From Armatimonadota bacterium (GTDB lineage: Bacteria > Armatimonadota > JAAZEB01): 35,643 nt of DNA. Below, in pieces: positions 494 through 8,010 of this stretch. Numbering within the stretch: position 1 is the first letter of the stretch; every line of letters begins with the position of its first letter. A model generated the notes under the pieces. That model worked only from the letters and a program-made list of their open reading frames with translations. It ran no database searches and had not been told where the DNA came from. The stretch covers positions 1 to 35,643 of the forward strand of contig JAAZEB010000082.1 of assembly GCA_012512505.1 (NCBI GenBank). Reading direction: 5' to 3'. The position numbers were made by a program, and so were the translations under genes.

Positions 494-1159
494 TTAGTCC
501 GGCTGAACCGACCACATACTCGGCTTGGTGCTGCCAATGCGGACGGTCTTGACGTGCCCGTCGGCATAAAGGACGTTGAAGCTGTCGTTGTGACGGTTCG
601 CCGGCAGCGACCAGGGGCCGTAGTCGGTGTTGGCCTCGTTCCACAGCTCGGGGCCATGGGCGTCGAAGAGCCAGATGGTGCCGCTGGGGTCCTGGATGGC
701 TGCGGTGGAAACCATGCGCAAGCCGTACTTGCCGGCGAAGCTGGGAGTCATGGTCCAGTAGCCCGGGTCAACGTGGTTGTAGCCGTAGCTCATCGGCTTG
801 GTGCCGTTGCGCCAGTGGTTACGTGGCGCCGAGAACCCAGTCTCGTCGTAGAAGCCGGAGGGGCAAATCACCACCTCGCGGTTCTTCGTATACGGCAGCA
901 GGAGATCGTCGAACCAGTCGAGCTGGCTGACATCGCCCCAGACGCCCTGGTACATGTAGCAGGGGCAGATCATCTCGTCGTAGTCCTGCGAGTACATCAT
1001 CATCGCTGAGCCGAGCTGCTTCAGGTTGCTCTGGCAGGTCGCTTTGCGAGCGTTCTCACGCGCGCGGGCGAAAACAGGAAAGAGGATGGCCGCCAAGATG
1101 GCGATAATCGCAATGACGACCAGCAACTCGATGAGGGTGAAACCATCTCTTCTTCTCAT
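494..1159 (-). CDS. Pseudopilin-like secreted protein with H-X9-DG motif
   Basis: This is a 221-residue protein with a type IV pilin/type II secretion pseudopilin N terminus: MRRRDG, then [18 protein letters not shown] as the methylated hydrophobic helix, with cleavage expected after Gly6. [13 protein letters not shown] and a Cys-x-SN-x-KQLG segment follow, then [10 protein letters not shown]. Near the C terminus, [12 protein letters not shown] is an exact H-X9-DG motif. I chose the ATG at 1159 because AGGAGG lies 7 bases upstream and the leader is then the usual length; the longer reading frame adds 44 unlikely residues. The family is very expanded in Armatimonadota and Planctomycetota, and its precise role (surface fibre, secretion or sensing) is not established. 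It has its own promoter module at 1274-1328. Confidence 0.9.
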
Positions 1160-1273: not shown

Positions 1274-1328
1274 ATTGTAGCGTGTGAACATTAGAATAGG
1301 ATTAGAGACACATTAGAGTTCTCTAATG
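1274..1328 (-). promoter_or_regulatory. TCTAAT-box promoter module, copy 1
   Basis: Read on the minus strand from 1328, TCTAAT boxes start at 1317, 1306 and 1295, exactly 11 bp apart. An inverted box (ATTAGA) lies at 1327-1322, making the perfect palindrome CATTAGAG-TT-CTCTAATG at 1311-1328. TACAAT at 1279-1274 is a good -10 hexamer, ten bases after the last box. There is no -35 hexamer: boxes two and three lie where sigma would contact DNA. An ungapped second copy at 7956-8010 has 42 of 55 bases identical and also precedes a pseudopilin gene. I infer an activator or repressor array; the protein that binds it is unknown. Confidence 0.8.
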
Positions 1329-5167: not shown

Positions 5168-6724
5168 TTAGTCGTCGAACGGCTTCACCGGCACAGTCTG
5201 GCCTTCACCCTGGCCACCGGGGCCCATCCGGTAGATGCGCAGGCCCACAATCTCACCGGCTTTGACGGCGTTGAGCGCCCGCTCGAAGGAGGCGCGATCG
5301 GTCACCGCGCGGCCGTTCACCCGCTGGATGATGTCACCGCGGGCCAGGCCGGCTTCCTCCGCCGGGCCGCCCGGCATCACCTGGACGATGATGACGCCCT
5401 TCACCTCTGCTGGCAGCCGCATCCCCTGCCGCACCGCCGGGGTGATCTCGCCGACGCGGATGCCCAGGCGCGCGCTCGGCTGCGAGTCGCTGCCGCCGGT
5501 GTTCGACGCCACCTGGCCATCCTGGGGGAACTCCGCCAGGGTGATCGGCACCGTCATCTCCTTGCCGCTGCGGATTAGCTTGAGCTGCACCTTGGTGCCC
5601 GGAGGCGTCGCGCTCGCCATCTCGACGAGATCGCTGGAGCTGCGCAACGGCTTGCCATCGAAGGCGATAATGACATCTTCCGCCTGAATCCCGGCCTTCG
5701 CCGCCGGCGTGTCTGGTGTTACCTCCTGGACGAAGACGCCCTGCTTCACCTTGGTCAACTGCTGGAAGTCGGGGGTAAGATCCGACACCTTCACGCCGAT
5801 GAAGCCATGGGAGACCTTCCCGGTGGCGATCAACTGCTCCATGATGCGCTTCGCCTTGTTGATCGGGATGGCGAAGCCGACGCCGGCGTTGGCGCGCAGG
5901 CCGCCGGTCGCAATCGCGGTGTTGATGCCGATCACCTCACCGCGGATGTTCACCAGCGCCCCACCGCTGTTGCCGGGGTTGATCGCCGCGTCGGTCTGGA
6001 TGAAGTTGGTGTAGTCGGTCGACTGAATGCGCTGCGAGCGGCCCAAAGCGCTCACCACGCCGACGGTAAAGGTGGAGGCGAGGCCGAAGGGCGAGCCGAT
6101 GGCAATCGCCCACTGGCCGACGCGCACCTTGTCCGAGTCACCCAGCCGGGCCTGATAGCGCGCCGCGTCCAACGGCTTCTCGGTGGTGACTTTCAGCACC
6201 GCCAGGTCGGTCTTCTGGTCTACGCCGCGCACGGTCACCTTGTCTTTGCCGCTGATCTCGGTGCCATCCTGGAGCACGACGCTGATCGTCACCCGCTCCC
6301 CATCCACCACGTGGGCATTGGTGAGGATGTAGGCCTGGTTGCCGTCCACCTTCACGATCACGCCAGAGCCGGTGCCCCCACCACCCCGCGGGGGCATCTG
6401 GGGCGGCACCTGGCCGAAGGGGAACTGGCGGAACAGATCGTCAAACGGGTTCTCCTCATCGCCGTCCTTGTCACCAGTGCCCGGCCGGGAGCGCTCCCGA
6501 CCCGTCTTGATCTGCACCACGACCGGTTCCACCGTGTCTGCAATGGCGCTGAAGGCCCCTTCGAGCGCCTCCAGGCTGCGAACGTGCTCGTCCGTGATTC
6601 CGGCGCGCTCCTGCGTGTAGGCGGGATGCCGGTCGAACGCCACATTCGCCAGCGAGATCGCCAGCGCCAGCAAGCTCACCAGCAGCGCCACTCCTCTGCT
6701 GCGTTGTCGGACGCTCCTCACCAT
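5168..6724 (-). CDS. htrA: HtrA/Deg family serine protease, two PDZ domains
   Basis: This 518-residue envelope protease has an N-terminal membrane segment at about residues 11-30. A trypsin-like domain at about 115-285 carries the full triad: His138 in TNAHVVDG, Asp173 in KTDLAVLKV and Ser253 in NPGNSGGAL. PDZ1 lies at about 300-390 (GFIGVKVSDLTPDF) and PDZ2 at about 420-515 (LGIRVGEITPAVRQ). A Gly/Pro-rich linker and an acidic stretch lie before the protease domain, where Deg proteins have their variable LA region. The family degrades or refolds damaged exported proteins. ATG 6724 has GGGGAGG seven bases upstream, which rejects a start nine codons earlier. A minus-strand extended -10 promoter lies at 6943-6948. 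Confidence 0.95.
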   Translation of the reverse strand: MVRSVRQRSRGVALLVSLLALAISLANVAFDRHPAYTQERAGITDEHVRSLEALEGAFSAIADTVEPVVVQIKTGRERSRPGTGDKDGDEENPFDDLFRQFPFGQVPPQMPPRGGGGTGSGVIVKVDGNQAYILTNAHVVDGERVTISVVLQDGTEISGKDKVTVRGVDQKTDLAVLKVTTEKPLDAARYQARLGDSDKVRVGQWAIAIGSPFGLASTFTVGVVSALGRSQRIQSTDYTNFIQTDAAINPGNSGGALVNIRGEVIGINTAIATGGLRANAGVGFAIPINKAKRIMEQLIATGKVSHGFIGVKVSDLTPDFQQLTKVKQGVFVQEVTPDTPAAKAGIQAEDVIIAFDGKPLRSSSDLVEMASATPPGTKVQLKLIRSGKEMTVPITLAEFPQDGQVASNTGGSDSQPSARLGIRVGEITPAVRQGMRLPAEVKGVIIVQVMPGGPAEEAGLARGDIIQRVNGRAVTDRASFERALNAVKAGEIVGLRIYRMGPGGQGEGQTVPVKPFDD

Positions 6725-7955: not shown

Positions 7956-8010
7956 CATTAGAGGGTTCTAATGCGTTTCTAATCGTTTCCTAATGTTGCC
8001 CTGGTACAAT
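7956..8010 (+). promoter_or_regulatory. TCTAAT-box promoter module, copy 2
   Basis: Direct boxes start at 7967 (TCTAAT), 7978 (TCTAAT) and 7989 (CCTAAT), each 11 bp apart. An inverted box (ATTAGA) is at 7957-7962, forming CATTAGAGGGTTCTAATG with its neighbour. TACAAT at 8005-8010 is the -10, at exactly the same distance as in copy 1. Transcription would run right into the pseudopilin gene at 8225 with a leader of about 200 bases. The AT-rich block stands out sharply from its surroundings. Confidence 0.8.

Follow-up and report, generated by a model that had tools for sequence, protein, structure and literature searches.

TCTAAT direct-repeat arrays before pseudopilin genes of an Armatimonadota bacterium are probable operators of an OmpR/PhoB-family response regulator

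Introduction

Published operators of the OmpR/PhoB family of two-component response regulators are short direct repeats. PmrA recognizes (C/T)TTAA(G/T)-N5-(C/T)TTAA(G/T) (PMC10729948), the WalR/VicR box reads TGTWAH-N5-TGTWAH (PMC4168254), and Mycobacterium tuberculosis PhoP binds 7-bp motifs with a strict 4-bp spacer, with higher affinity for three or four motifs than for a pair (PMC4832192). At its box, PhoB makes contact with sigma (PMC4660055, PMC4168254). SARP regulators also use heptamer repeats, which are spaced by 4 bp, lie on one face of the helix, and usually overlap the -35 element (PMC3367932).

Armatimonadota and related phyla contain dozens of DUF1559 pseudopilin genes without known role or regulation; in Fimbriimonas, 79 pseudopilin genes were reported (PMC4072686). 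A readable operator would provide a handle on which pseudopilins are expressed together and on what signal. We found no work on DUF1559 promoters in the open-access literature, where absence is weak evidence.

Here we analyze a 35,643-nucleotide stretch of DNA from an Armatimonadota bacterium (referred to here as the window) that contains arrays of TCTAAT boxes in front of pseudopilin genes. Contrary to the initial annotation, which knew of no named system with this layout, it is the layout of OmpR/PhoB-family operators (PmrA, WalR/VicR, M. tuberculosis PhoP) and also of SARP heptamers. The enterobacterial PmrA/BasR operators (PMC10729948, PMC4660055) likewise consist of AT-rich hexamers with a 5-bp gap and an 11-bp period that are bound by head-to-tail protomers, but they have two hexamers (CTTAAT/TTAAG) whereas here TCTAAT(G/C) occurs in three or more boxes together with an inverted box. 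WalR/VicR sites (PMC4168254) are direct repeats as here, and individual Streptococcus mutans half-sites read TCTAAT; however, they comprise two half-sites, and the candidate regulator described below is not WalR/YycF. The operators of M. tuberculosis PhoP and Escherichia coli PhoB (PMC4832192, PMC4168254) share the 7-bp repeats with a 4-bp spacer but have a different box. Streptomyces SARP sites (PMC3367932) have similar one-face repeats, but SARPs are not two-component regulators and their boxes differ. The S. mutans VicR half-sites were the only TCTAAT-N5 operator found in the open-access literature, again a weak absence. The system is of a known kind; in the open-access literature searched, we found no description of its box, of its regulator subfamily, or of its pilin regulon.

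Two arrays in the window precede pseudopilin genes

Read on the minus strand from 1327 down to 1274, the first array has the order ATTAGA-N4-TCTAAT-N5-TCTAAT-N5-TCTAAT-N10-TACAAT (Table 1). The initial annotation had described three TCTAAT boxes at an exact 11-bp period, an inverted box, and TACAAT 10 bp on, and our base-by-base check agrees with this description. All boxes of the plus-strand copy at 7957-8010 are in register with the minus-strand array. The match between the two arrays is real and not due to chance: the previously reported ungapped identity to 7956-8010, 42 of 55 bases, was reproduced, while the maximum among 200,000 random 55-mer pairs of the window was 33. Moreover, the 44-bp pattern with up to three mismatches matched twice in the window and not once in 100 shuffles. 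Both pilin genes of the window contain the N_methyl (PF07963) and DUF1559 (PF07596) domains of the class (Pfam) and encode a prepilin N-terminus. Since the neighbours of these genes, a CNNM/CorC-type protein and a Vut_1 transporter, are unrelated, the arrays belong to the pilin genes.

Table 1. Positions of the two arrays and their pilin genes in the window.
Feature	Position	Strand	Basis and remarks
DUF1559 / N-methylation pseudopilin, 221 aa, H-X9-DG C-terminal motif	494..1159	-	Pfam
-10 hexamer TACAAT	1274..1279	-	sequence; TA...T invariant in 24 copies
Box 3 TCTAAT	1290..1295	-	sequence; 10 bp upstream of -10
Box 2 TCTAAT	1301..1306	-	sequence
Box 1 TCTAAT, predicted response-regulator half-site	1312..1317	-	sequence
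Inverted box (ATTAGA read on minus)	1322..1327	-	sequence; 4 bp upstream of box 1
Inverted box, second array	7957..7962	+	sequence
Boxes 1-3, second array (TCTAAT 7967, TCTAAT 7978, CCTAAT 7989), 11-bp period	7967..7994	+	
-10 hexamer TACAAT, second array	8005..8010	+	sequence
Second DUF1559 / N-methylation pseudopilin, 239 aa	8225..8944	+	Pfam

The array has the geometry of an OmpR/PhoB-type operator

We built a sequence-only profile from 24 array copies. Box positions mostly carry 1.5-2 bits of information, and the spacers are nearly free. The spacing is exactly 11 bp in all aligned copies, the direct-repeat arrangement of OmpR/PhoB operators, and the distance from the last box to the -10 is 10 bp throughout, a gap that is partly fixed by the search pattern. 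In E. coli, the pho box likewise stops approximately 10 bp short of the -10 and takes the place of the -35. Consistent with the missing -35 hexamer noted in the initial annotation, no TTGACA-like element is present at 16-18 bp spacing in the 24 aligned copies (3-5 mismatches of 6), and the array takes the position that OmpR/PhoB operators have at activated promoters, where they replace or overlap the -35. The -10 had been correctly read as TACAAT; what was overlooked is that it is usually extended, with TG one base before the hexamer in 15 of 24 copies.

The array is very probably an operator-promoter on which a two-component response regulator of the OmpR/PhoB family acts. Published operators of this family are such direct repeats, and the half-site sequence, the 11-bp period, and the higher affinity for three or four repeats agree with published members (PMC10729948, PMC4168254, PMC4832192); the best interpretation of TCTAAT(G/C) at an 11-bp period is therefore a half-site for an activator of the OmpR/PhoB type. 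The boxes would be head-to-tail half-sites with one protomer per 11-bp turn, and the phosphorylated regulator is predicted to bind the array cooperatively. Once bound, it would replace the missing -35 and hold sigma-A RNA polymerase on the extended -10 (class II activation). We infer activation rather than repression because the -35 is absent.

The inverted box, whose ATTA core is conserved among the copies, is not standard in OmpR/PhoB operators and counts against the operator reading. It is conserved in this Armatimonadota family and is also found in a few other phyla (L160, L163, L169, L190, L193, L207); a number of Bacteroidota loci have further direct boxes in its place.

Arrays precede a third of the pseudopilins and additional genes

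We searched the genome of the bacterium (G000, 5.66 Mb) and two relatives of the same family (G001 and G002), which together represent three genera. The profile search of G000 yielded 17 strong sites and one weak site, and 14 of the 17 strong sites, as well as the weak one, lie directly before FTLIELLVV-type pseudopilin genes. Since G000 contains 45 such genes, approximately 0.15 pilin-upstream sites are expected against the 14 observed (P approximately 1e-27 for any plausible gene number). Many genomic copies linked to FTLIELLVV gene starts, the check that the initial annotation had proposed, were indeed found. Of the many pilin-like surface-protein genes of this uncultured bacterium, the candidate regulator appears to turn on a selected third.

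Of the three remaining strong sites, the one on C208 is before a class I methyltransferase gene, the one on C246 before the gene of a 129-aa orphan protein, and the one on C281 before that of a small membrane protein of 90 aa. In G002, five of six sites are before pilins and one is before the orphan protein, while the two sites of G001 are before the methyltransferase and the orphan protein, and none of the 86 pseudopilins in this 5.0-Mb genome has an array match. In each of the three family genomes, the orphan protein (122-129 aa) follows an array (L031:1821-2207, L014:1586-1951, L021:1110-1496), with 50-56% identity across the three genera; it has no Pfam or NCBIfam match, and a fold search gave no match at E <= 0.001. 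Because the methyltransferase, the 90-aa membrane protein, and the orphan protein also follow arrays, we rejected a pilin-only regulon. The copies at FTLIELLVV gene starts support the earlier proposal that a regulator controls a group of pilin-like genes, and the regulon extends beyond the pilins.

At one G002 locus (L019, G002:C223:122-209), TCTAATGCAAT is repeated seven times almost perfectly in front of a pilin gene; the repeats resemble a variable-number tandem repeat and could tune binding.

Promoter type is independent of pilin ancestry

On a tree of 33 pilins from G000, array promoters are scattered and unclustered, the array label changing 12 times compared to 11.3 times in shuffles. 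The first window pilin has an array, whereas a paralogue on C304 that shares 81% identity with it across 216 residues has a TTGACA-N17-TAGACT promoter. Given the scattered label and this paralogue, promoter type has been exchanged many times among pilins, and we infer selection for pilin co-regulation. A TTGACA-N17-TATAAT type promoter is found at a number of array-less pilins.

Could the copies be functionless homologous DNA, carried along by recent pilin duplication? The tandem copies at C236, near-identical in both gene and promoter, fit this explanation, but we consider it highly improbable since the boxes are invariant while the spacers between them are free, since the array label shows no clustering among the pilins of the tree, and since, in three genera and many phyla, unrelated genes follow arrays as well. 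Under the operator reading, the box would have been placed before a subset of duplicated pseudopilin genes in this family, yielding a co-regulated surface set.

Two other G000 pilins (L079 and L085; G000:C260:5093-5613 and 6098-6618) have TTAAC-N6-TTAAC boxes with an 11-bp period that end 21 bp upstream of the -10 and are located directly downstream of the gene for a different OmpR-family regulator (C260:6365-7024). These boxes and this regulator are a possible second regulator-pilin module.

Arrays accompany OmpR-family regulators across phyla

An exact-pattern scan of 84,980 species identified at least 113 matching stretches, and these matches reject an invention specific to the family. After exclusion of 16 contigs with long dispersed arrays (15 of the MAG JAAZLV and one similar), which are noise in the scan, at least 97 loci remained; some AT-rich matches also look like chance. 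Among the matches listed, 33 of the 97 non-repeat loci include a gene for an OmpR-family regulator, a kinase gene, or both. In 21 of the 97 listed, the distance from the kinase stop codon to the array, on the same strand, is -2 to 72 bp; in three the array is before the regulator operon, and in three it is flanked by the regulator and a divergent target. Targets elsewhere (Pfam, among the matches listed) include outer-membrane efflux proteins, PepSY proteins, MgtC, and a trypsin-like (HtrA-type) protease; relatives of the candidate regulator described below are thus beside efflux, PepSY, and HtrA-like genes in other phyla, which suggests envelope or metal stress as a candidate signal.

From phylum to phylum the array stays the same and the sigma element changes: Armatimonadota arrays stand before TATAAT-like hexamers, and Bacteroidota arrays often stand before TAnnTTTG (17 of 97 loci among the matches listed). 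This bears on direct recognition of the boxes by an unusual sigma factor, which the initial annotation had offered as one option. The missing -35 and the fixed distance of the boxes from the -10 would agree with such a factor. It is nevertheless very improbable, since the -10 is of the standard extended sigma-A/70 type (TGnTAtaaT) and the same array also precedes a different element in Bacteroidota; repeats of one-turn period in 3 to 7 copies and the repeated linkage of the array to response-regulator genes argue further against it.

The array-adjacent regulators resemble one another. All 25 of those in our tree set, including that of G000, contain the recognition-helix signature N.[VI][DE]VY[VIM].[YF][LV]R.K, compared to three of 29 other regulators, two of which are the same array-bearing loci fetched again. 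A branch with 100/97 support separates all 25, along with nine regulators for which no array is known, from 18 other OmpR-type regulators. In a reverse test on 49 Armatimonadota regulators, an array was present at two of seven regulators with the signature and at none of 42 without it, while the other five of the seven had none nearby; shuffled loci never came closer than six mismatches.

Two observations from the scan concern unusual loci. In the Bacteroidales MAG JAAZLV (L138, L153, L155, L157, and others), TTCTAATCTCG / TTCTAATATGG units form approximately 15 long arrays at dispersed sites, often with an inverted GATTAGAG after them, and these look like a dispersed repeat element. In L156, from an AT-rich MAG, a TCTAAT-type array stands before a PstS-like gene and the adjacent OmpR-type regulator is of another type; this array may be a phosphate operator or chance.

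A candidate regulator in the same genome

In G000 and G001, the array before the methyltransferase belongs to an operon with the order OmpR-family regulator, histidine kinase, array, methyltransferase. The regulator gene (G000:C208:28521-29207), two genes upstream of the array, encodes a receiver (PF00072) and a Trans_reg_C (PF00486) domain, and the C208-type regulators of the two genomes are 86% identical. We consider the C208 protein, which is encoded in this operon, the likely reader of the arrays in G000. An AlphaFold2 model of the kinase sensor domain had a mean pLDDT of 47.8 and was set aside.

The best-scoring model for the C208 regulator is that of the CusR/CopR/CzcR heavy-metal regulators (TIGR01387), yet its 266.8 bits are below the curated cut-off of 279.2. 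The same model is best for six array-adjacent regulators from other loci (236-277 bits, all below 279.2). We also rejected assignment to PmrA (NF007928; 192.3 bits, cut-off 330), PhoB (TIGR02154; 192.6 bits, cut-off 296.2), and WalR/YycF (175 bits, cut-off 340).

Several observations count against the operator reading. Neither a C208-type regulator nor the methyltransferase was found in G002, which has six arrays; since this assembly is 80% complete, loss of the regulator and an assembly gap are indistinguishable. G001 has the regulator but no array match at its pilins, and five of the seven signature regulators in the Armatimonadota test have no array nearby. In addition, no array is present upstream of the C208 regulator gene itself in G000, and the array-adjacent regulator of L156 is of another type.

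The arrays may instead be bound by a different OmpR/PhoB-type paralogue (e.g., the C118/C132/C187 regulator), perhaps as a repressor. This paralogue is present in all three family genomes, including G002, and its G000 copy has a partly similar helix (NTVDVYIGFLRKKID). However, there is no array near the three paralogue genes, the G001 and G002 copies contain DVHIK rather than DVYVN, and none of the 25 array-adjacent regulators belongs to the paralogue branch, which makes this assignment unlikely.

A possible phylum-crossing regulator-operator pair

Returning to the C208-type regulator, we tentatively propose, with somewhat more doubt than confidence, that DVYxNYLR-type OmpR-family regulators and TCTAAT(G/C) arrays form an undescribed pair that crosses phyla. 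The pair might originally have served envelope or metal stress and, in one Armatimonadota family, have been redirected to part of a large pseudopilin repertoire, independent of pilin ancestry, such that promoter choice would decide which surface filaments are made under stress. The inverted box might add an opposite-facing protomer that is not known in such operators. The linkage of arrays and regulators connects a single probable operator sequence with a single regulator subfamily across many phyla, and regulons predicted from sequence can thereby be put to the test in Bacteroidota that are in culture (Mucilaginibacter, Hymenobacter, Spirosoma, Rufibacter).

A related layout occurs in another Armatimonadota genome (L281, approximately 5118, minus strand), where TTTCAT-N5-TTTCAT stands approximately 10 bp before TATAGT beside a related regulator, the same arrangement as in the TCTAAT array with a different box.
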